From Flavobacteriaceae bacterium (lineage in GTDB: Bacteria; Bacteroidota; Bacteroidia; Flavobacteriales; Flavobacteriaceae), in the NCBI GenBank assembly GCA_016764435.1, contig JAESRX010000010.1, positions 1-64,000 on the forward strand: a stretch of DNA of 64,000 nucleotides. The letters run 5' to 3'. Both the position numbers and the translations under genes were made by a program. A model generated the notes under the pieces. The model saw only the letters and a list, made by a program, of their open reading frames with translations, searched no databases and was not told the origin of the DNA. This document shows, piece by piece, positions 34,434-45,676 of the stretch (its first letter is position 1; each line of letters starts with the position of its first letter).

Positions 34434-34463
34434 TTGCAGGTTCAACTATTTGTTGTATCATTG
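34434..34463 (+). promoter_or_regulatory. Promoter of the arg leader and operon
   Basis: TTG (34434-34436) is followed by exactly 19 bases and TATCATTG (34456-34463), one mismatch from TAnnTTTG. Transcription would begin only a few bases before the leader ATG at 34469, so the leader ORF would be nearly leaderless. Confidence 0.55.
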
Positions 34464-34468
34464 TCCAG

Positions 34469-34543
34469 ATGAAAAACACAAATACATATAGTTTTACAAA
34501 CATTCGCCGCTGTCGCCTTGAGAGCCGTCGCCCCTTGCGCTAA
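34469..34543 (+). CDS. Arginine operon leader peptide, first copy
   Basis: The 24-codon ORF begins ATG AAA AAC and its last 13 codons spell IRRCRLESRRPLR before TAA. Six of those 13 are Arg, all CGC or CGT, although the local DNA is strongly AT-rich and AGA is a common Arg codon in this genome. It lies just after a promoter and about 290 bases upstream of an eleven-gene arginine operon. This is the expected form of an attenuator leader sensing charged Arg-tRNA. It has no terminator directly behind it; the terminator is at 34779-34816, after the second copy. Confidence 0.8.
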   Translation: MKNTNTYSFTNIRRCRLESRRPLR

Positions 34544-34559
34544 TCTTTAGTAGGGAAGT

Positions 34560-34707
34560 TTAACTATTTATTTTCATTATCAACAGTATCATTTTGCAAC
34601 ATTTTTTTAACATACAAGTTTTATATACCCTAACATCTGTTAGTGTAGCTTCTGTGGTTGCACCTATTATTTTACGACGCTTTCGCCGTCGCCCCTAGGG
34701 CGTTATA
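34560..34707 (+). repeat. Diverged tandem copy of the arg leader segment
   Basis: This stretch repeats features of 34441-34550 in the same order: TT-AACTATTT, TATCATT, ACATA-AGTTTTA, the exact 12-mer GCCGTCGCCCCT, and ATCTTTA. It has a second Arg-rich frame ending ILRRFRRRP at TAG (34695-34697), with five Arg codons of nine. It has no ATG: possible starts are GTG at 34653 or a distant TTG. The segment also holds a hairpin, CGCCC-CTA-GGGCG (34689-34701). Whether it is translated is unknown. Confidence 0.6.
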
Positions 34708-34713
34708 TCTTTA

Positions 34714-34738
34714 AGAAAGTGGTGAGTCCGCTTTCGTA
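34714..34738 (+). other. Hairpin in the arg leader RNA
   Basis: GAAAGTGG and CCGCTTTC pair around a TGAGT loop. The GAAAG arm could instead pair with CTTTC inside the second Arg-codon run (34680-34684), so translation there could switch the fold. No T run follows, so this is not itself a terminator. Confidence 0.45.
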
Positions 34739-34778
34739 TTTCAAAAAAAAACATACTAATTAATACCAAAAAGCATCA

Positions 34779-34816
34779 AAAATGAGTGTTTAATACTCGT
34801 TTTATATACTTTTTTA
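34779..34816 (+). terminator. Attenuator terminator of the arg operon
   Basis: AAAATGAGTGT (34779-34789) pairs with ATACTCGTTTT (34793-34803) around a three-base loop, eleven pairs including two G-T pairs. TTTATATACTTTTTT follows. It lies between the Arg-rich leaders and the first structural gene, which starts 15 bases later, so it must be regulated or weak for the operon to be expressed. Confidence 0.7.
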
Positions 34817-34830
34817 AATAAATAAACGCA

Positions 34831-35454
34831 ATGGAAATTGTAGTTGCTAACAGGTCTCATATAAAATTCGCAGGTATTATCTGTGATACTATTGCTGTTT
34901 CTGCCCAAGATAGAGGTACAGGAATAGCGAGGAGAACCCCTGAATATATCATTCAAAAAATAGAATTAGGCAATGGAGTTATTGCCCTTGAGGGGGATAA
35001 TTTTGCAGGGTTTTGTTATATAGAAACATGGGATGATAAGGAGTTTGTAGTGAATTCTGGATTGATTGTACACCCTGATTTTCGAAAAAGAGGATTGGCT
35101 AAAAAGATAAAGAAAAAGATCTTAGACTATTCTATCTCAAAATATCCCGATGCAAAAATATTCGGAATTACGACGGGTTTAGCAGTATTGAAAATTAATT
35201 ATGAGTTGGGCTACCAACCAGTAACATTTTCAGAATTGACCACAGATAAGGCCTTTTGGGATGGATGTAAAACCTGTGTAAATTTTGACGTTTTAAAAAG
35301 AACGGAACAGGAAATGTGTTTGTGTACGGGAATGCTGTACGATCCAATACAGGAAAAGAGAAGCCTAGGGCAGCCTGTGAACTTGAAAGTACTCAAGAGA
35401 CTTAAGAAAATAAAACAGGCCTTGTTTTTGAAAAAAAGAAAGAAGACAGATTAA
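34831..35454 (+). CDS. GNAT acyltransferase, probable N-acylglutamate synthase
   Basis: The 207-residue product has a GNAT domain with the acyl-CoA loop HPDFRKRGLAKKI (about residues 87-99). A C-terminal part after the domain has paired cysteines, CKTC (about 149) and MCLC (about 168), that could bind metal. It is the first gene of the arginine operon, where no other acylglutamate synthase (argA or argJ) is found. It is therefore the best candidate for making N-acetyl- or N-succinyl-glutamate, the first step. That function is inferred from context and the family alone does not give it. Confidence 0.75.
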   Translation: MEIVVANRSHIKFAGIICDTIAVSAQDRGTGIARRTPEYIIQKIELGNGVIALEGDNFAGFCYIETWDDKEFVVNSGLIVHPDFRKRGLAKKIKKKILDYSISKYPDAKIFGITTGLAVLKINYELGYQPVTFSELTTDKAFWDGCKTCVNFDVLKRTEQEMCLCTGMLYDPIQEKRSLGQPVNLKVLKRLKKIKQALFLKKRKKTD

Positions 35455-35498
35455 AAAGATACTAATGGTAGGTGAAAGTCTACGAAAAAATAGTTAAG

Positions 35499-36680
35499 AT
35501 GAAAAAAGTAGTATTAGCATATAGTGGAGGATTGGATACATCATACTGTGTAAAATATTTATCCAAAGAGAAGAAATTAGAAATTCATAGTGTATTAATT
35601 AATACAGGTGGTTTTACAGTGTCCGAATTGGAGATGATAGAGGAAAAGGCCTATGAAATGGGGGTTTGTTCACATAAAAGCATCAATATACTGGAAGCAT
35701 TTTATCAAAAAGCGATTAAGTATATGATTTTCGGAAATGTATTAAAAAACAATACTTATCCTTTATCGGTGAGTGCAGAGAGAGTATTCCAAGCCATAGA
35801 AGTTGCTAATTATGCGAAGAGTATTGGAGCAGATTATATTGCTCATGGAAGTACTGGTGCAGGAAATGATCAAGTGAGATTTGATATGATTTTTCAAACA
35901 GTGGCACCAGAGATTGAGATTCTTACCCCTATTAGAGATTTGAAATTGTCGAGACAAGAGGAGATTGATTATCTGAAAAAAAATGGGGTAGACGCTTCTT
36001 GGGAAAAATCTAAATACTCCATTAATAAGGGGATTTGGGGAACCAGTGTTGGAGGGATAGAGACCTTAACATCTCATCAGAATTTACCTTCTGAAGCATA
36101 TCCCAGTCAACTTAAAAAAGAAATACCTTCTAAAATTTCTTTACACTTTAAAAAAGGGGAATTAGTAGGCTTGAACGGGAAGTTACTAAGTCCGGTGGAT
36201 GCTATTTTAAAATTGGAAGCACTTGCTTCTGACTATGCAATAGGAAGAGACATGCATGTGGGGGATACGATAATCGGAATTAAAGGAAGAGTAGGTTTTG
36301 AAGCCGCAGCGGCAATGGTGACAATTAAGGCGCATCATATGTTAGAAAAGCATGTGCTCTCTAAATGGCAGCAATACTGGAAGGAACAATTAGGGAACTG
36401 GTATGGAATGTTATTACACGAAGGGCAGTATTTGGACCCCGTAATGCGAAATATTGAGTCGTTTTTAACGGATTCCCAAAAAACGGTCACAGGAAAAGTA
36501 TTTGTGACCTTGATGCCCTATCATTTTAGAGTAGATGGTATCGATTCTAAACACGATTTAATGAAGTCAGATTTTGGAGAATACGGAGAAATGAATAAAG
36601 CTTGGACGGCAGATGATGCCAAAGGGTTTATCAAGATATTAAGTACACAAAATAAAATTTATCACCAGGTTAATTCGTAA
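35499..36680 (+). CDS. argG: Argininosuccinate synthase
   Basis: This ATP-dependent enzyme joins citrulline and aspartate. The 393-residue product starts MKKVVLAYSGGLDTSYCVKY, with the PP-loop motif SGGLDTS, and has the substrate segments SIGADYIAHGSTGAGNDQVRF (about residue 110) and YSINKGIWGTSVGG (about 179). The ATG at 35499 is chosen over a GTG nine codons upstream because it starts right before the PP-loop strand. Second gene of the arg operon. Confidence 0.93.
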   Translation: MKKVVLAYSGGLDTSYCVKYLSKEKKLEIHSVLINTGGFTVSELEMIEEKAYEMGVCSHKSINILEAFYQKAIKYMIFGNVLKNNTYPLSVSAERVFQAIEVANYAKSIGADYIAHGSTGAGNDQVRFDMIFQTVAPEIEILTPIRDLKLSRQEEIDYLKKNGVDASWEKSKYSINKGIWGTSVGGIETLTSHQNLPSEAYPSQLKKEIPSKISLHFKKGELVGLNGKLLSPVDAILKLEALASDYAIGRDMHVGDTIIGIKGRVGFEAAAAMVTIKAHHMLEKHVLSKWQQYWKEQLGNWYGMLLHEGQYLDPVMRNIESFLTDSQKTVTGKVFVTLMPYHFRVDGIDSKHDLMKSDFGEYGEMNKAWTADDAKGFIKILSTQNKIYHQVNS

Positions 36681-36682
36681 TT

Positions 36683-37678
36683 ATGATACAAGTAGGAATA
36701 ATTGGAGGGGCTGGATATACCGCAGGAGAATTGATCAGATTGTTAGTGCATCACAAGAATGTTACCATTGATTTTGTGTATAGCACCTCTAATGCGGGCA
36801 ATAAAATAGCGGATGTTCATCAAGATTTATTAGGGGAAACGGAAGGGGCCTTTACGGCGACTGTTAATTTGAATGTAGATGTGGTTTTTTTGTGTCTAGG
36901 GCATGGGAACACAACTGCGTTTTTAAATAAGCATCACTTTTTAGCGGTTACAAAAATCATTGATTTATCCAATGATTTTAGATTGTCAAAGGACCATGTT
37001 TTTGGAAAAAGAACCTTTATTTATGGCTTGCCAGAATTGCAACAAGAAGCGATTTGTACAGCCTCTAATATTGCAAATCCAGGATGTTTTGCGACAGCGA
37101 TACAGTTAGGATTACTGCCATTAGCAAAAGCTCAAAAATTAGAGACAACCATCCATGTAAATGCTACGACGGGAGTTACAGGAGCAGGTGTTTCTCCTAC
37201 TTCTACAACGCATTTTAGTTGGAGAGCAGCTAATTTCTCTGTCTATAAAGCATTTAATCATCAGCATTTAGAGGAGATTTCTGAGAGTCTTCAGCAGTTG
37301 CAAGACAAACAGAAAGATCCAGTAAATAAGACAGATGATATATTATTTATACCCAATAGAGGGAGTTTTTCAAGAGGGATTTTTGCAAGTATTTATTTAG
37401 AGAGCAGTTTGACAGAAACAGCTGCTTATGATTTGTTTGAAGCCTTTTATAAAGACGCTGTTTATACACATATCAGTAAAAAAGAATTGCATTTGAAGCA
37501 AGTGGTAAATACAAATAACTGTTTTATACATATAGAAAAACATGGCAAGCAATTATTTATTACAACGGTATTAGATAATCTATTAAAAGGAGCGTCTGGA
37601 CAAGCAGTACAGAATATGAATTTGATGTATGGATGGGACCAAAGGGAAGGTCTTAGACTCAAAGCATCCTCATTTTAA
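36683..37678 (+). CDS. argC: N-acyl-gamma-glutamyl-phosphate reductase
   Basis: This NADPH-dependent enzyme reduces the acylglutamyl phosphate made by ArgB to the semialdehyde. The 331-residue product has the dinucleotide loop GIIGGAGYTAGELIRLL (residues 5-21), YGLPELQ and the catalytic Cys in NPGCFATAIQLGLLPL (about residue 132). It starts 2 bases after argG. Length fits the short ArgC type. Confidence 0.94.
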   Translation: MIQVGIIGGAGYTAGELIRLLVHHKNVTIDFVYSTSNAGNKIADVHQDLLGETEGAFTATVNLNVDVVFLCLGHGNTTAFLNKHHFLAVTKIIDLSNDFRLSKDHVFGKRTFIYGLPELQQEAICTASNIANPGCFATAIQLGLLPLAKAQKLETTIHVNATTGVTGAGVSPTSTTHFSWRAANFSVYKAFNHQHLEEISESLQQLQDKQKDPVNKTDDILFIPNRGSFSRGIFASIYLESSLTETAAYDLFEAFYKDAVYTHISKKELHLKQVVNTNNCFIHIEKHGKQLFITTVLDNLLKGASGQAVQNMNLMYGWDQREGLRLKASSF

Positions 37679-37690
37679 AAATTACAACAA

Positions 37691-38485
37691 ATGAAAATAG
37701 GAATTATTGGAGTTGGGAATTTAGGCTATTCCATTGCCTTAGGAATTTTAAATCAGGAGGCTATTCGTTTTACGTCCTTGTATTTATCGAAGCGAAACGT
37801 AGCGTCCTTACATGCTTGGTCAGAACTTCCAAGAGTAAGTATAACATCGGATAATATCGCTTTAGTTAAAAAATCGGAAATCATTATTATAGCGGTACAA
37901 CCGGGACAATTAAAAGGTGTTTTAGAAGAAATAAAACCGTATTTAATTTCGGATAAACACACTATAATTTCCGTGGTGACAGGGCGTAAGATAGCACAGA
38001 TAGCGGCTGTTTTAGGGGAGGATCATGCTCTTATTAGATGCATGCCAAATACGGCCATTTCTGTTGGGCAATCAATGACCTGTTTAAGTGCGAATGAAAA
38101 AGGGATAAAAAAGATAGAATTTGCGACCGTAATTTTTGGAGCTTTAGGGAAAACCATGTGTGTTGAGGAAGAATTAATGCAAGCCGCAACTGTTATATGT
38201 GCGAGCGGTATTGCTTTTTGGATGCGTTTGATTAGGGCCACTACGCAGGGTGCAATTCAATTGGGGTTTGATGCTGCTGAAGCTCAGGAATTATCCGTGC
38301 AGACCTGCTTGGGAGCCGCAAGTTTATTAAAGAAATCTGAGAGTCATCCAGAAGCAGAAATAGATAAAGTAACCACACCTAGAGGATGTACTATTTCTGG
38401 ACTGAATGAGATGGAACACGAAGGGTTGAGTAGTGCATTGATCAAAGGATTGGTGGCTTCTTTTAATAAAATTAATCAGATTTAA
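37691..38485 (+). CDS. proC: Pyrroline-5-carboxylate reductase
   Basis: The 264-residue product carries out the last step of proline synthesis, reducing pyrroline-5-carboxylate with NAD(P)H. It has the N-terminal GIIGVGNLGYSIALGIL fold motif, RCMPNTAISVGQSMT (about residue 116) and a C-terminal TPRGCTISGLNEME, the typical ProC signature. It is placed inside the arginine operon between argC and argD, which links the two glutamate-derived pathways. Confidence 0.92.
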   Translation: MKIGIIGVGNLGYSIALGILNQEAIRFTSLYLSKRNVASLHAWSELPRVSITSDNIALVKKSEIIIIAVQPGQLKGVLEEIKPYLISDKHTIISVVTGRKIAQIAAVLGEDHALIRCMPNTAISVGQSMTCLSANEKGIKKIEFATVIFGALGKTMCVEEELMQAATVICASGIAFWMRLIRATTQGAIQLGFDAAEAQELSVQTCLGAASLLKKSESHPEAEIDKVTTPRGCTISGLNEMEHEGLSSALIKGLVASFNKINQI

Positions 38486-38486
38486 T

Positions 38487-39611
38487 ATGGAATTATTTGA
38501 GGTGTATCCACTGTATGATGTCACTCCTGTAAAAGCGCTAGGAAGTACAGTATGGGATAAAAACAACCAGCAATATTTAGATTTATATGGAGGACATGGA
38601 GTTATTTCTGTAGGACATTCACACCCTAAATATGTGGAGAAATTAACTGCGCAATTAAATAAAATTGGGTTTTATTCCAATGCGGTTCAAAATCCTTTGC
38701 AACAACAATTAGCAGGAAAATTAGGAAGCGTTTCTAATTGTGAAGATTACAACTTGTTTTTGTGTAATTCAGGTACGGAAGCAAACGAAAACGCCTTAAA
38801 AGTAGCCTCATTTGTGACGGGGAAAAGTAGGGTAATTTCCTTTGAGAATTCGTTTCACGGGCGTACATCTGCAAGTGTTTCTATAACAGATAATAAAAAA
38901 ATACAGGCCACAATCAATAGGTTTAATCCAGTGACTATTTTACCCTTGAATGAATTGTTTTTACTTGAAAAAGCGTTAGAAAAGGGAGATGTATGTGCGG
39001 TGATTATTGAAGGGATTCAAGGAGTTGGAGGGCTAGATGAAGGAACAACGAAGTTTTTTAAAGGCATGGAACAGTTATGCTGGAAATACGAAGCGTTATT
39101 AATTGTAGATGAAATACAATCTGGCTATGGTAGGAGCGGTGCTTTTTTTGCGTATCAGCATCATCAGATAAAACCAGATATAGTTACTGTCGCTAAAGGA
39201 ATGGGGAATGGATATCCTATGGCGGGGGTGCTTATTCATGAAACTATTAAAGCCTCTTTAGGGATGTTGGGAACTACTTTTGGCGGAAATCATTTAGCCT
39301 GTGTAGCAGGGTTGGCGGTATTAGAAATTATAGAAGAAGAAGGTTTACTAAAGAATGTAACGGACGTTTCTAACTATTTTGTGCGTCAAGTAAAAACAAT
39401 TGATGCCGTAAAAAATATCAAAGGAAAAGGCCTGATGATAGGGCTGGAATTTGAAAATGAAGTGGGGGATTTACGTAGGAAATTAATTTATGAAGAGCAT
39501 ATATTTACTGGAGGCGCTACCAATAAAAAAATGTTAAGAATTTTACCTCCTTTAAATATCACTTTCAATGAAATAGATGTTTTTATAACCGCCTTAAAAA
39601 AATTAGTATGA
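38487..39611 (+). CDS. argD: Acetylornithine/succinylornithine aminotransferase
   Basis: This PLP enzyme transaminates N-acylglutamate semialdehyde. The 374-residue class III product contains CNSGTEANENALKVA (about residue 93), the PLP pocket LIVDEIQSGYGRSGAFFAY (about 204) and the Lys motif TVAKGMGNGYPMAGV (about 233). It begins 1 base after proC and overlaps proA by four bases (ATGA). Confidence 0.92.
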   Translation: MELFEVYPLYDVTPVKALGSTVWDKNNQQYLDLYGGHGVISVGHSHPKYVEKLTAQLNKIGFYSNAVQNPLQQQLAGKLGSVSNCEDYNLFLCNSGTEANENALKVASFVTGKSRVISFENSFHGRTSASVSITDNKKIQATINRFNPVTILPLNELFLLEKALEKGDVCAVIIEGIQGVGGLDEGTTKFFKGMEQLCWKYEALLIVDEIQSGYGRSGAFFAYQHHQIKPDIVTVAKGMGNGYPMAGVLIHETIKASLGMLGTTFGGNHLACVAGLAVLEIIEEEGLLKNVTDVSNYFVRQVKTIDAVKNIKGKGLMIGLEFENEVGDLRRKLIYEEHIFTGGATNKKMLRILPPLNITFNEIDVFITALKKLV

Positions 39612-40810
39612 GTACAAGAAAAACGTTGACGATCAATCAAAGGAATAAAGTGTTGTTATGTATGGCTTCTTTAGTATTGGAGAATAAAGAAGGGATACTT
39701 CAAGCAAACAGTTTGGATGTTTTCCATTATAAGGGCGCTGATCTGTCAGTGTTGGATCGTTTAAAAGTGGATGCCGTAAAGGTAAATGATATGGCAACAT
39801 CGTTACGTCTATTGGCGGATGAATCAGATCCTTTAGGAAAGGAATTACATCATGTAATACAGGAAAACGGTTTAAAAATAATTAATAAAACGGCCCCTTT
39901 TGGAACGGTGATGATCATTTATGAATCGCGTCCCGATGTAACTGTAGAGGCTGGAGCTATCGCATTTAAATCAGGTAATAAAATTATTTTAAAAGGAGGT
40001 AAAGAGGCCATTTATTCTAATTTAAAGTTGGTAGAACTATGGCACAAGGCCTTATTGCAGTGCGCTATAAATACAACTTGGGTGGAGTATTTAAAATTGT
40101 CTAGAATTGAAACACAGGAGTTTTTAGAAAATCCAACTCAAAAAATTGATTTGATAATCCCCCGAGGAGGAGAGAAATTGATTGCATTTGTAAAAAAGAA
40201 TGCGAACTGTCCTGTCATCGTAAGTGGCAGAGGAAATAATTTTCTGTATGTAGATTCGGAGGCGGATGTAGAAATAGCTTTGCGAATAATAATGAATTCA
40301 AAAACAGCCAAAATATCGGCATGTAATGCGCTAGATAAAGTATTGGTAAATGCTAGTTTACCTCATAAAGGAGCATTTTTAAAAGCATTAGTACTGCAGT
40401 TAAAAGCTTCGAATGTCACTATTTATGGAGATGAAAAAATAAGCTCTTTAGAAGAGGTTACCTTGATAAAAAATGATGATGTATGGTACGAAGAGTTTTT
40501 AGATTATAAAATTGTGATAGGTCAAGTAGCGAGTAGCTCGGAGGCTATTGATAAAATTAACAGGTATGGAGGTGGACATTCTGCGGTTATAATCACAACC
40601 AATGAACAGAAAGCAGCGGTATTTATGACGGGGGTAGATGCAGCCGCTGTTTATCAGAATGCTTCCACACGATTTACGGATGGAGGACAGTTTGGCTTAG
40701 GGGGAGAATTGGCCATAAGTACTGATAAATTACACCATAGAGGCCCTATGGGATTGCAACATTTAGTGACTAACAAATGGTATATTTTTGGGAATGGACA
40801 GACACGATAA
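39608..40810 (+). CDS. proA: Glutamate-5-semialdehyde dehydrogenase (gamma-glutamyl phosphate reductase)
   Basis: The 400-residue product reduces gamma-glutamyl phosphate in proline synthesis. It belongs to the ALDH superfamily, with APFGTVMIIYESRPDVTVEAGA (about residue 98), LIIPRGGEKLIAFVKKN and the C-terminal STRFTDGGQFGLGGELAISTDK (about 352). A Cys near residue 238 (KISACNALDKVLV) is in the catalytic position. It overlaps argD by four bases and proB by about 17. Confidence 0.93.
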   Translation: MSTRKTLTINQRNKVLLCMASLVLENKEGILQANSLDVFHYKGADLSVLDRLKVDAVKVNDMATSLRLLADESDPLGKELHHVIQENGLKIINKTAPFGTVMIIYESRPDVTVEAGAIAFKSGNKIILKGGKEAIYSNLKLVELWHKALLQCAINTTWVEYLKLSRIETQEFLENPTQKIDLIIPRGGEKLIAFVKKNANCPVIVSGRGNNFLYVDSEADVEIALRIIMNSKTAKISACNALDKVLVNASLPHKGAFLKALVLQLKASNVTIYGDEKISSLEEVTLIKNDDVWYEEFLDYKIVIGQVASSSEAIDKINRYGGGHSAVIITTNEQKAAVFMTGVDAAAVYQNASTRFTDGGQFGLGGELAISTDKLHHRGPMGLQHLVTNKWYIFGNGQTR

Positions 40811-41570
40811 AAAACGAATCTTACTTAAGATAGGAACCAATGTATTGACGAAAGAGTCGGAGTATATTTCTCGAGGGAAAATTGAGGATATTGCACGTCA
40901 AATAAAATTATTGACTGCTGATTATGAGTTTATACTGGTAAGTTCAGGGGCCATTGCGGCAGCTAAACAGTTTGTGCAGTTAGAAAGTAATGGAGAAGAA
41001 ATCAATGTAAAGCAAGCATTGGCTTCTATAGGACAACCTCATTTAATGCGTATTTTTCAAGAGAACTTCAGGGAGTTAGGCTTGCTTACTTCTCAGTGTT
41101 TATTGTCTTATTCTGATTTTGAAAAGGAACAGTCAAGAAAAAATATAGTGAATACGATTAATGTTTTAGTAGCCAATAATTACATTCCTATTATCAATGA
41201 GAATGATACTGTAGCTACCGATGAAATTAAATTTGGTGATAATGATAAACTGGCCGCTTTGACGGCGGTATTACTATCAGTGGATTTATTAGTGATTGGG
41301 ACCAATACAGACGGCGTGTATACGAGGAAATCACTACAACACGGAAAACCTCAAACGGTACGGGAAACTAGTGATATTTTGGAGATTGAAAAAGAGGTAA
41401 TATCAGCATGTTCAAGCCAAGGAACAGGAGGGATGCACTCAAAAATAAAAGCAGCTCAAATAGCTCAAGCAGCAGGTATAGAAACTTGGATAGTAAACGG
41501 GTTGGAAGATCGTTTTTTAATCAAAGCGATGAATAAAACGACTGTTTTTACTAAAATTACAACACCTTAA
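40794..41570 (+). CDS. proB: Glutamate 5-kinase, short form
   Basis: The 258-residue product is an amino-acid-kinase-fold enzyme that phosphorylates glutamate for proline. Motifs include RILLKIGTNVLTKE (about residue 8), LVSSGAIAAAKQF (about 50), PIINENDTVATDEIKFGDND (about 132) and GTGGMHSKIKAA. It has only the kinase domain and lacks the C-terminal PUA domain of the 370-residue enterobacterial ProB. The ATG at 40794 is preferred to a TTG two codons earlier. Confidence 0.92.
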   Translation: MDRHDKKRILLKIGTNVLTKESEYISRGKIEDIARQIKLLTADYEFILVSSGAIAAAKQFVQLESNGEEINVKQALASIGQPHLMRIFQENFRELGLLTSQCLLSYSDFEKEQSRKNIVNTINVLVANNYIPIINENDTVATDEIKFGDNDKLAALTAVLLSVDLLVIGTNTDGVYTRKSLQHGKPQTVRETSDILEIEKEVISACSSQGTGGMHSKIKAAQIAQAAGIETWIVNGLEDRFLIKAMNKTTVFTKITTP

Positions 41571-41571
41571 G

Positions 41572-42552
41572 ATGAAACATTATACAGGAATTAATGATAT
41601 AGGGAATTTGCAACAAGCCGTGAAAGAGGCGCTTGAGTTGAAAAATGACAAGCTTAAGTATCGAGCATTGGGAAAGGATAAAACCATTTGCCTATTGTTC
41701 TTTAATAATAGCCTCCGTACCAGATTGAGTACGCAAAAAGCAGCACAGAATTTAGGAATGGACGTCATCGTTATGAATTTTGGTTCGGAAGGTTGGGCTT
41801 TAGAATATGATGACGGAACAGTGATGGATCAAGGGAAATCAGAGCATGTAAAAGAAGCAGCTCAAGTGGTCTCTCAATATGCAACTGTTATTGGAATTAG
41901 AGCTTTTGCGGGCTTAGAGGATAAAGAAAAGGATGCAGCGGAACTGGTGTTGAATAGTTTTGTGAAATATGCTTCCGTGCCTATCGTAAATATGGAAAGT
42001 TCATTACAGCATCCATTGCAATGCCTAACGGATGCCATAACCATGGAAGAATATAAAATAGTTGGAAGAAAACCAAAAGTAGTATTGTCTTGGGCACCAC
42101 ATCCTAAAGCATTACCTCATGCTGTCGCCAATTCATTTATTAATATGATGCAGTTGCAAGACGCCGATTTTGTAATTACACACCCCATCGGCTATGAGTT
42201 AGATCCAAAAATAACCAAGGATATTCTGATTGAATACGACCAGGAAAAAGCATTTGAAAATGCTGATTTTGTCTATGTAAAAAACTGGAGTTCTTATCGG
42301 GATTACGGTCAAATTAAATGTACAGATCCTAACTGGATGATTACGGCATCCAAAATGAAAGTAACAAATAACGGGAAATTTATGCACTGCTTACCCGTGC
42401 GAAGGAATGTGGTAGTGACGGATGAAGTAATCGACAGTAAAAATTCCTTAGTGATAAAGCAAGCTGCAAATAGAGAATTTGCAGCACAGATTGTGTTGAA
42501 AAAAATATTAGAAAATGATGAAACTAACTCTAGTGAAAATAGGAGGACATAG
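41572..42552 (+). CDS. argF': N-acylornithine carbamoyltransferase (succinylornithine type)
   Basis: The 326-residue product transfers carbamoyl from carbamoyl phosphate to an acylated ornithine. The carbamoyl-phosphate motif is NNSLRTRLSTQKAAQNLGMD (about residue 46), close to the Bacteroides succinylornithine enzyme and unlike the STRTR of ornithine transcarbamylase; WAPHPKALPHAVANSF and FMHCLPVRRNVVV also fit. The loop that selects acetyl or succinyl (Glu or Pro in characterised enzymes) seems to read GKSEH, with Ser. Its C-terminus overlaps argB by about 35 bases. Confidence 0.85.
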   Translation: MKHYTGINDIGNLQQAVKEALELKNDKLKYRALGKDKTICLLFFNNSLRTRLSTQKAAQNLGMDVIVMNFGSEGWALEYDDGTVMDQGKSEHVKEAAQVVSQYATVIGIRAFAGLEDKEKDAAELVLNSFVKYASVPIVNMESSLQHPLQCLTDAITMEEYKIVGRKPKVVLSWAPHPKALPHAVANSFINMMQLQDADFVITHPIGYELDPKITKDILIEYDQEKAFENADFVYVKNWSSYRDYGQIKCTDPNWMITASKMKVTNNGKFMHCLPVRRNVVVTDEVIDSKNSLVIKQAANREFAAQIVLKKILENDETNSSENRRT

Positions 42553-43291
42553 CCTCGAAAATAAAAAAGATTTACATCAGTTTTTAATTGATTTCTCTCG
42601 TATTGAGGGGGTGAAAATTCTAGTACATGGTGGAGGGAAATCGGCCACAAATTTAGCGAATAAATTGGGCTTAAATCCTACCCTAATAGCGGGGAGAAGA
42701 ATTACCGATGCACAGAATTTAGACATTGCAATTATGACCTATGCGGGGTTGTTAAATAAAAACATAGTAGCAGGTTTGCAGAAAAACAAGTGTAATGCTA
42801 TCGGCTTAACGGGGGCGGATGCAAATACGATTGAGTCCGTTAAACGCCCTGTAAAAACGATCGACTATGGCTTTGTAGGGGATGTTAAAAAAGTGAATTC
42901 TAGGAATATTAAGGCCTTGTTATTGGCGGGGTTTACACCTGTTTTTTGTGCCTTAACACATGATACTAATGGGCAAATTCTCAATACCAATGCTGATACA
43001 GTGGCCAGTGAAATAGCCATTGCAATGACGGAGGAGTTTGAAGTAGAATTACTGTACTGTTTTGAATTAAAAGGTGTGTTAAGCGATATTAAAAATAGAA
43101 ATTCTGTAATTAAAGAGTTGACCACTAGTGTTTATAGACGTTTTTTGAAGCAAGGTGTTATTTCAGTAGGTATGTTGCCTAAATTAGAAAACTGTTTTAA
43201 GGCCTTACAGCAAGGTGTTTCGGTCATAAAAATAGGAAATACAAGCATGATAGGTAAGGGCTATGATGTGTTTACTAAAATTATATTATAA
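42518..43291 (+). CDS. argB: N-acylglutamate kinase
   Basis: The roughly 257-residue product phosphorylates N-acylglutamate. It shows LTLVKIGGHSL at the start (Lys of the amino-acid kinase fold), ILVHGGGKSATNLANKLGL (about residue 35), ITDAQNLDIAIM, LTGADANTIE and a C-terminal MLPKLENCFKALQQGV. Two consecutive ATG codons (42515 and 42518) are equally possible. The reading frame overlaps the end of the transcarbamylase gene, which suggests coupled translation. Confidence 0.92.
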   Translation: MKLTLVKIGGHSLENKKDLHQFLIDFSRIEGVKILVHGGGKSATNLANKLGLNPTLIAGRRITDAQNLDIAIMTYAGLLNKNIVAGLQKNKCNAIGLTGADANTIESVKRPVKTIDYGFVGDVKKVNSRNIKALLLAGFTPVFCALTHDTNGQILNTNADTVASEIAIAMTEEFEVELLYCFELKGVLSDIKNRNSVIKELTTSVYRRFLKQGVISVGMLPKLENCFKALQQGVSVIKIGNTSMIGKGYDVFTKIIL

Positions 43292-43292
43292 G

Positions 43293-44351
43293 ATGGAAGA
43301 ACTAAAAACGAACGCAATAATTTTATTAAAGAAGTTGATAAAGACGCCCTCTTTTTCTAGTGAAGAGCAGCGAACAGCATTGGTGATATCACAGTGGTTT
43401 TCAGAGCATGATATTAAGTTTCAATTGGTAAAAAACAACGTTTGGGCGGTGAATAAATACTATGATATATCCAAACCTACCTTACTATTAAATTCACATC
43501 ACGATACGGTAAAACCGAATAAAGGATATACAAATGATCCATGGGATGCTTTTGAAAGAGAAGGGAAATTATTTGGTTTAGGGAGTAATGATGCTGGAGG
43601 TTGCTTGGTGTCTTTAATGGCTACTTTTACTCATTTTTACCGTCGTAAAAATTTAAAATACAACCTGTTAATAGTTGCTTCTGCAGAAGAAGAAAATTCT
43701 GGAGAGCATGGTTTAAGAGGAATCTTAAATGTCTTGCCAGCATTTGAGGTCGCTATTGTGGGAGAGCCTACAAAAATGCAAATGGCGGTGGCAGAAAAAG
43801 GACTATTGGTGTTAGACGGGAAATCCATAGGAGTTCCTGGACATGCCGCACATGGACTGGGGCTTAATTCCATTTATCAAGCCATGGAAGATGTTTCTTG
43901 GATTAAAAACCACCAGTTTAAGAAAAAATCAAGGCTGTTAGGAGCTGTAAAAATGACGGTGACTCAGATACATGCAGGGACTCAACACAACGTAATTCCA
44001 GCCGTAACTAACTTTGTGGTGGATGTTCGTGTGACAGATGCTTATACCAATCAGGAGGTTTTAGAGATCATTCAAAAAAATACGATCTGTGATATTCAAG
44101 CGCGTTCAATACGTCATAATTCTTCTTCCATTCCAATGGAACATCCTATAGTCAAGGCGGGACTTAAATTAGGGCTGACTACGTACGGCTCTGCGACTTT
44201 GTCTGATCAGGCATGCTTGTCTTGCCCTTCTGTAAAAATCGGACCAGGTGATACTTTGCGTTCTCATGCGGCAGATGAATATATCTTTATAGAAGAGGTA
44301 GAGGAAGGTATAGAAATGTATATAAAATTACTCAATGATGTTATTCTGTAA
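43293..44351 (+). CDS. argE: N-acylornithine or N-acylcitrulline deacylase, M20 family
   Basis: The 352-residue product is an M20 metallopeptidase-fold amidohydrolase. Zinc-ligand motifs are LLNSHHDTVKP (His/Asp at about residue 68), GSNDAGGCL, ASAEEENSG and VGEPT. It should remove the acyl group. Because the transcarbamylase acts on acylated ornithine, the natural substrate is probably acylcitrulline. It begins 1 base after argB; the ATG chosen skips ten codons of overlapping frame. Confidence 0.88.
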   Translation: MEELKTNAIILLKKLIKTPSFSSEEQRTALVISQWFSEHDIKFQLVKNNVWAVNKYYDISKPTLLLNSHHDTVKPNKGYTNDPWDAFEREGKLFGLGSNDAGGCLVSLMATFTHFYRRKNLKYNLLIVASAEEENSGEHGLRGILNVLPAFEVAIVGEPTKMQMAVAEKGLLVLDGKSIGVPGHAAHGLGLNSIYQAMEDVSWIKNHQFKKKSRLLGAVKMTVTQIHAGTQHNVIPAVTNFVVDVRVTDAYTNQEVLEIIQKNTICDIQARSIRHNSSSIPMEHPIVKAGLKLGLTTYGSATLSDQACLSCPSVKIGPGDTLRSHAADEYIFIEEVEEGIEMYIKLLNDVIL

Positions 44352-44389
44352 CATCCATAAAAATTAATAACAAGTTTAAAATAAGAAGG

Positions 44390-45676
44390 ATGAAACTTTG
44401 GGATAAAGGATTTTCGACAGATAAAAAGATAGATATTTTTACCGTTGGTAATGATAGAGAATTAGATTTAGAATTGGCAAAATACGATGTGATAGGAAAT
44501 ATAGCACATGCAAAAATGTTATGTAGCATCGGTGTTTTGACTGCTGAGGAATGTAAATTACTGGTTCAAGAGCTAGAAAACATAGGTAAAAGTATTCACA
44601 AAGGTTCATTTACTATAGAAGATACTTTTGAGGATGTACATTCTAAAATAGAGTATTTATTGACAGAAAAACTGGGGGATGCAGGAAAAAAAATTCATAC
44701 AGCACGTTCTAGGAATGATCAAGTTTTAGTGGATATACAATTGTATTCTAAGGATAAGTTACAGGAAATGAAGGAAGATGTAAAATCACTGTTCGACTTA
44801 TTGATGGCGCTTGCCGCGCGATATAAAGAAGTATTATTACCTGGGTATACACATTTTCAAATAGCCATGCCTTCTTCTTTTGGACTGTGGTTTTCTGCCT
44901 ATGCGGAGAGTTTGATAGATGATATGTATTTTATCAATGCGGCGATTAAAGTAGCGGATCAAAATCCGTTGGGTTCCGCAGCGGGTTATGGAAGTTCATT
45001 TGCAATTAATAGAACCATGACAACGGAGTTATTAGGGTTTAAAACATTAAAATACAATTCAGTAGCGGCGCAGATGGGGAGAGGGAAATTAGAGAAGTCT
45101 ATTTCTTTTGCAATGAGTAGTGTGGCAGCTACACTGTCTAAAATGAGCATGGATATTTGTTTGTATATGAGCCAGAATTTTAGTTTTATTGCTTTTCCTG
45201 ACGAGTTAACTACCGGGTCTAGTATTATGCCACATAAGAAAAACCCAGATGTTTTCGAATTAATTAGAGGGAAATGTAATAAGTTACAAGCCATGCCTTA
45301 CGAGATGACCTTGATTTCTAATAATTTACCAAGTGGTTATCACAGAGATTTACAATTATTAAAAGAGAGTTTGATTCCTAATTTTTCTACGCTTAAATCC
45401 TGTTTGGAGATGTTGCATTACTCCTTAGAAAATATTCAAGTGAATGAGACGATCTTAAGGGATGAAAAATACACTTATTTGTTTAGTGTGGAAGCGGTAA
45501 ACACATTAGTGCAGCAGGGGGTTCCTTTTAGAGATGCCTATAAAATGGTGGGAAAAGAGATCCAAGACGGTACGTTTAACCCAGGGAAAACGGTAAATCA
45601 CACCCATGAAGGGAGTATAGGGAACTTATGTTTAGAGGAAATAAAAGAAAAAATGAAAGGTGCTTTAAATTGTTAA
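44390..45676 (+). CDS. argH: Argininosuccinate lyase
   Basis: The 428-residue product splits argininosuccinate to arginine and fumarate. It has the fumarase-superfamily signature GSSIMPHKKNPDVFELIRGK (about residue 277) and the N-terminal DVHSKIEYLL and TARSRNDQVLVDI motifs. It is the last gene of the arg operon and is slightly shorter than the usual 460 residues. No strong terminator was seen after it. Confidence 0.94.
   Translation: MKLWDKGFSTDKKIDIFTVGNDRELDLELAKYDVIGNIAHAKMLCSIGVLTAEECKLLVQELENIGKSIHKGSFTIEDTFEDVHSKIEYLLTEKLGDAGKKIHTARSRNDQVLVDIQLYSKDKLQEMKEDVKSLFDLLMALAARYKEVLLPGYTHFQIAMPSSFGLWFSAYAESLIDDMYFINAAIKVADQNPLGSAAGYGSSFAINRTMTTELLGFKTLKYNSVAAQMGRGKLEKSISFAMSSVAATLSKMSMDICLYMSQNFSFIAFPDELTTGSSIMPHKKNPDVFELIRGKCNKLQAMPYEMTLISNNLPSGYHRDLQLLKESLIPNFSTLKSCLEMLHYSLENIQVNETILRDEKYTYLFSVEAVNTLVQQGVPFRDAYKMVGKEIQDGTFNPGKTVNHTHEGSIGNLCLEEIKEKMKGALNC

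Follow-up and report, generated by a model that had tools for sequence, protein, structure and literature searches.

Arg-rich leader ORFs and a conserved RNA element precede the arginine operon of Flavobacteriaceae and may take the place of ArgR control

How is arginine synthesis controlled in the Flavobacteriaceae? A search for ArgR (PF02863) found it in none of 120 genomes of the family, 99 of them near-complete, and was positive in 8 of 14 control genomes. In this respect the operons of the family differ from ArgR-controlled arginine operons. The locus studied here is an eleven-gene arginine operon at 34831-45676 of the window, by which we mean the whole stretch of 64,000 nucleotides that was analysed; this and all other features described below lie on its forward strand. 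Based on NCBIfam and Pfam matches, the genes follow each other in the order GNAT acetyltransferase, argG, argC, proC, argD, proA, proB, acetylornithine carbamoyltransferase, argB, argE/dapE-type deacylase and argH-type lyase. The leader preceding them suggests a specific answer to the question for this family.

In a preliminary description the leader was read as a ribosome-mediated attenuator with two Arg-rich segments, the second a duplicate of the first, followed by an intrinsic terminator. All the elements named there are present in the sequence. The first leader ORF (ORF1, 34469-34543, peptide MKNTNTYSFTNIRRCRLESRRPLR) does have six Arg among its last 13 codons, the second segment (ILRRFRRRP) has Arg at five of nine codons, and the exact 12-mer shared by the two, GCCGTCGCCCCT, occurs in the window at 34524 and 34685 only, where shuffled sequences would be expected to have none. 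Six Arg in 13 codons were reached by 2 of 2000 dinucleotide shuffles of 34434-34830, and two such segments by none of them. What had been overlooked is that the second segment belongs to a separate, conserved ORF of 34 codons (ORF2, 34594-34698, peptide LQHFFNIQVLYTLTSVSVASVVAPIILRRFRRRP), which on sequence grounds appears to start with the TTG at 34594. We propose that ORF1 and ORF2 are the first and second of two sensors.

The comparison with relatives used 80 named loci taken from genome contigs, with upstream regions in gene orientation; a search of 40 relatives located the first gene in 22. Throughout the Flavobacteriaceae, orthologous arg operons are preceded by Arg-rich leader ORFs, and the Arg runs noted in the window are kept family-wide as in-frame codons. 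ORF1 is near-identical within the genus and has Arg-rich analogues in about 40 loci of other genera. When the reading frame was chosen by openness alone, Arg made up 19.1% of the 16 codons before the hairpin P1 (see below), while the other two frames had 5.5% and 4.7%; each of the six Arg codons was used. The same was seen when the ORFs were counted by type. In ORF1 the Arg share was 22.8% in the leader frame and about 3% out of frame; the corresponding values were 12.7% and 2-3% for ORF2 of two-ORF leaders, and 16.0% and 5-6% for one-ORF leaders. Arg was the sole residue enriched, approximately 3-7 fold, in the leader frame only. It could be argued, since P1 overlaps CGN codons, that G+C-rich hairpins alone account for the Arg codons and that no ribosome translates the ORFs; this is hardly credible, because the enrichment is frame-specific, extends to codons upstream of P1 and to ORF1, and involves all six synonymous codons. 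The proline genes proC, proA and proB sit within the arginine operon (36683-41570). Joint sensing of Arg and Pro by the leader was considered and rejected, because the Pro codons have no frame specificity: no Pro enrichment particular to the leader frame was found.

Two Arg-rich ORFs in series are present in about 40 Flavobacteriaceae loci, and a similar number have a single ORF, of the ORF2 type and with an ATG start. On a tree built on the first gene, which is not a species tree and has many weak branches, the one-ORF, two-ORF and other leader states require at least 6 to 9 changes. A recent duplication of the sensing segment in this lineage is not upheld by these data: the two-ORF layout is scattered across the family tree, and each ORF has RNA partners of its own, a long-range helix (H0) in the case of ORF1 and the hairpins P0, P1 and P2 in that of ORF2. 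In the genus of the window the end of ORF1 (SRRPLR, 34524-34543) resembles the end of ORF2 (RRRP, 34685-34702) and is unlike ORF1 elsewhere, which may be due either to local copying between the ORFs or to convergence.

Comparison between species places the widely conserved RNA structure at 34690-34735, and not at 34780-34816, where the terminator had been read. It consists of two hairpins. P1 (34690-34702, CGCCC-CUA-GGGCG) has the last Arg-Pro codons as its 5' arm and the stop codon in or beside its loop; across the family it extends over the final Arg codons and, in many cases, over the stop codon. It is found in nearly all family loci and shows compensatory forms, for example CGCAC/GUGCG in loci L009 and L061. 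P2 (34715-34735, GAAAGU-GG-UGAGU-CC-GCUUUC) starts about 10-13 nt after P1, at a near-constant distance from the Arg codons. Its stem forms on average 5.82 of 6 pairs, compared with 4.84 when the 3' arms are shuffled (maximum 5.05 in 1000), its apex GG-UGNGY-CC is conserved with the loop UGNGY in all 65 sequences, and the closing pairs switch jointly from GG/CC to GA/UC in L036, L087 and L088. A third hairpin, P0 (34630-34643, CUAAC-AUCU-GUUAG), lies within ORF2 before its Arg codons. Species-matched P0 arms pair better than mismatched ones (z -5, 0 of 5000 permutations), and P0 appears in most minimum-energy folds (z -3.0 for the fold in the window). The inferred start of ORF2 is 24-30 codons before P1 in all 41 two-ORF leaders; judged from sequence, the start codons of these are TTG in 23, GTG in 11 and ATG in 7.

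A covariance model of P1-P2, which matched P2 of the window at E 3.9e-10, tied the element to the arginine operon. At E <1e-6 it matched 17 of 40 relatives, once each and at the arg operon, and at E <1e-5 it matched 92 of 150 family genomes, again once each and before arg operons. Comparison of positions by eye puts these matches some 40-240 nt before the arg GNAT gene. The one strong exception is genome G101 (locus L171, G101:C41:301100-304500), where the element precedes another ORF of about 194 aa followed by argG; a search of this genome found no orthologue of the gene that usually comes first. There was no Rfam match at the gathering score in the window and nine related loci, and weaker matches by E-value in the window were rejected as chance. 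P2 in relatives carries a bulged A at a distance of two GG/CC pairs from the loop, a shape which we take to be that of the coat-protein operator hairpins of RNA phages; P2 of the window is without the bulge.

Several ideas about the P2 apex were tried and discarded. As a general amino acid element it does not hold, because the apex AGGTGNGTCC gave 11 genome matches compared with 9 for the reversed control, none of them in a P2 context. Pairing between the Arg codons and the apex, put forward by RNAalifold as an invariant CGCC/GGUG pairing, is broken in L009, L061, L036, L087 and L088, and pairing of the apex with the 3' end of 16S rRNA is opposed by the change from GG/CC to GA/UC. Nor did any alternative, antiterminator-type pairing of P2 with the leader or the downstream region surpass that of mismatched species.

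The hairpin taken for the terminator (34780-34816) has eleven pairs and a T-rich tail ending at 34816, and it is stable in the window (-9.2 kcal/mol, z -5). The expected covariation was seen in part: paired changes preserve the hairpin within the genus, but its U tail is lost in two of the three relatives compared (G001 and G002; the fourth sequence has N at the site), and the hairpin was not seen in other genera. It is instructive to compare the hisG upstream regions of the same group of genomes (L144-L170; L147 is from the genome of the window), which encode a leader peptide containing 2-6 His codons and have a canonical G+C-rich terminator with a U run. By their sequence these are textbook attenuators, and they illustrate the form that a genuine terminator takes in this group of genomes. 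A terminator-like site was found in 26 of 27 hisG leaders, the sole miss (L162) apparently being a wrongly oriented sequence, but in only 2 of 67 arg leaders. A classical attenuator that combines a duplicated sensing segment with intrinsic termination at 34780-34816 is thus very improbable, in spite of the Arg codon runs, the stable hairpin with its U-rich tail and the hisG leaders which seem to work in this way: the loss of the U tail, the scarcity of terminator-like sites and the family-wide occurrence of the two-ORF layout all speak against it. What stands of the earlier reading, backed by the in-frame Arg codons, the arg-only RNA site and the missing ArgR, is an Arg-codon leader as the best account of arg operon control; the terminator and a recent duplication are not supported.

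The RNA partner of ORF1 is H0. The first codons of ORF1 (AUGAAAA, 34469-34475, and AUAGUU, 34488-34493) can pair with a U-rich tract that lies immediately upstream of ORF2 (AACUAU, 34562-34567, and UUUUCAU, 34571-34577), and the complementarity tracks the changes between genera. Among 38 non-redundant loci the own-species duplexes average -12.2 kcal/mol compared with -8.6 for between-species ones, and none of 20000 permutations was as low. The fold in the window alone is no better than that of shuffled sequences (z -0.7), so the support for H0 is comparative. Its 3' strand ends a median of 5 nt before the ORF2 start codon in 41 loci and 16 nt before it in the window.

The 5' end of the transcript is probably close to this helix. 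A -7-like promoter element, TATCATTG, is located at 34456-34463, 13 nt before the ATG of ORF1. Among the two-ORF leaders, 36 of 43 have such an element with its start 12-13 nt upstream of the first leader ATG; among the one-ORF leaders, 23 of 32 have it at 15-16 nt. In a control region it had no fixed position. From this fixed distance it appears that transcription probably starts at, or within a few nt of, the ORF1 ATG, yielding a leaderless or nearly leaderless transcript. If so, the arg leader is unusual beside those of Flavobacterium johnsoniae, in which 87% of the transcripts have leaders longer than 10 nt (PMC6847099). Flavobacteria are without Shine-Dalgarno sequences, and structure near the start codon tunes initiation (PMC6847099).

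It is conceivable that a single mechanism, transcription attenuation, operates here, with P2, or H0 with its U tract, as a non-canonical terminator which a stalled ribosome prevents from acting. The near-constant distance of P2 from the Arg codons would fit such a role, as would the U-rich 3' strands of H0 and the at least 5 U found in the next 8 nt after 10 of 65 P2 hairpins. However, the U tract is missing after most P2 hairpins, termination would leave the invariant apex unexplained, the alternative pairing partner was not found, and several genera have no G+C-rich stem in the AU-rich H0. We regard this explanation as rather unlikely.

Natural variants of the leader are informative about how ORF2 may be read out. 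Ten Flavobacterium loci (L091, L095-L097, L101, L103, L107-L109 and L112), which, being related, represent one event or a few, retain ORF1, here with two CGG codons, whereas P1-P2 and the Arg run of ORF2 have been lost; P1-P2 is also missing from L175 (G144) and from L176 (G158), the latter of another lineage. In these loci ORF2 has about 55-62 codons, and its stop codon adjoins or overlaps the start of gene 1: in the ten Flavobacterium loci and G144 the frame is open to a stop at most 2 nt from the gene 1 start, and in G158 the stop overlaps the start. Since this layout is that of translational coupling, translation of ORF2 probably favours the expression of gene 1. It also suggests that H0 may act via the translation of ORF2, and that P1-P2 and coupling may be two ways to relay the state of ORF2.

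The same variants bear on the possibility that an arg-specific trans factor or a metabolite, for example arginine, binds to P1-P2, and that the Arg ORFs merely modulate access to this site. An invariant apex on a covarying stem, occurring once per genome and at arg operons only, is what one would expect of such a site. On the other hand, the analysis yielded no candidate factor, metabolite aptamers are usually larger than P2, some second reason would be needed for the in-frame Arg codons, and in Flavobacterium P1-P2 is replaced by ORF coupling. We consider this distinctly unlikely.

Taken with the missing ArgR, these comparisons incline us, by a little more than an even chance, to the view that a cis-acting leader RNA senses charged Arg-tRNA by ribosome stalling and replaces control by ArgR, in the present case with two sensors in series. 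In the mechanism we propose, the transcript would begin at or near the AUG of ORF1. With plentiful Arg-tRNA ORF1 would be finished, and the freed 5' end could pair, as H0, with the sequence before the weak start of ORF2, which would then stay untranslated. With scarce Arg-tRNA a ribosome would be held on ORF1, H0 would stay open and ORF2 would be translated. In the second stage a ribosome would stall at the Arg codons of ORF2, between P0 and P1, and block the formation of P1. Otherwise P1 and the arg-specific P2 would reduce the expression of the operon. They might do so by RNA decay, through a bound factor, or by a P1-dependent pause accompanied by Rho-dependent termination. In Flavobacterium ORF2 would be read out via stop-start coupling to gene 1 in place of P1-P2. 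Several observations speak against this mechanism: a search for an antiterminator-type partner of P2 found none, H0 is AU-rich and unremarkable when the window is taken by itself, the first Arg codon of ORF1 in Flavobacterium is codon 13, so that a ribosome stalled there would leave part of the 5' strand of H0 uncovered, and one-ORF species manage without the first stage. H0 could also act on transcription instead. It is only tentatively, and with more doubt than belief, that we suggest that a two-stage ribosome relay with a terminator-free P1-P2 readout represents an undescribed class of regulatory RNA standing in for ArgR family-wide.

It is useful to compare this leader with known systems. 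Like the ribosome-mediated attenuators of the his and trp type, among them the hisG leaders of these genomes, it has a short ORF rich in codons for the end product directly before a biosynthetic operon, but it differs from them in having no canonical terminator and no antiterminator that we could find, and in having two serial sensor ORFs and an operon-specific conserved hairpin. In translational attenuators of the erm and cat type a ribosome stalled on the leader ORF frees the start region of the next ORF. H0, with comparative support for both the helix and its position just before the ORF2 start, is reminiscent of these; here, however, the controlled ORF would be a second leader, the signal would be an amino acid and not an antibiotic, and the start of gene 1 lies outside H0. 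Attenuation was reportedly the subject of a comparative study by Lopatovskaya et al. in 2010. Going by its name and taxon (Bacteroidetes, cis-regulatory), Bacteroid-trp RNA (RF01692) likewise leads an amino acid operon in this phylum, but the window and the nine related loci have no match to it, to the T-box or to any other Rfam leader at the gathering score. A transcriptome study of Flavobacterium psychrophilum, thus of the same family, gave clues to leader-peptide attenuation at amino acid operons and named conserved 5' elements for pheA and hisG; its main text mentions neither an arg operon nor a P1-P2-like element (PMC9723704). A literature search, with subscription journals mostly outside its reach, found no published description of an arg leader of Bacteroidetes or of P1-P2. 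If our reading is true, it would be a case of leader-peptide control with two serial sensors and an output other than the textbook terminator. The hisG leader of the same cell offers an internal comparison, and the natural variants (one ORF, two ORFs, ORF1 with translational coupling) provide a ready set of constructs.

No relatives were found among viral contigs, and the search of two sister families yielded only three genomes and one genome, respectively. The sister-family loci L180 and L182 have a single Arg-rich leader, a P1-like hairpin and, in the position of P2, a hairpin with another conserved apex, GGUUACGUAYY. Finally, the acetyltransferase encoded by the first gene of the operon (34831-35454) has invariant cysteines (C146, C149, C163 and C165) and a basic C-terminal tail, which are possibly a metal-binding addition to the GNAT fold.
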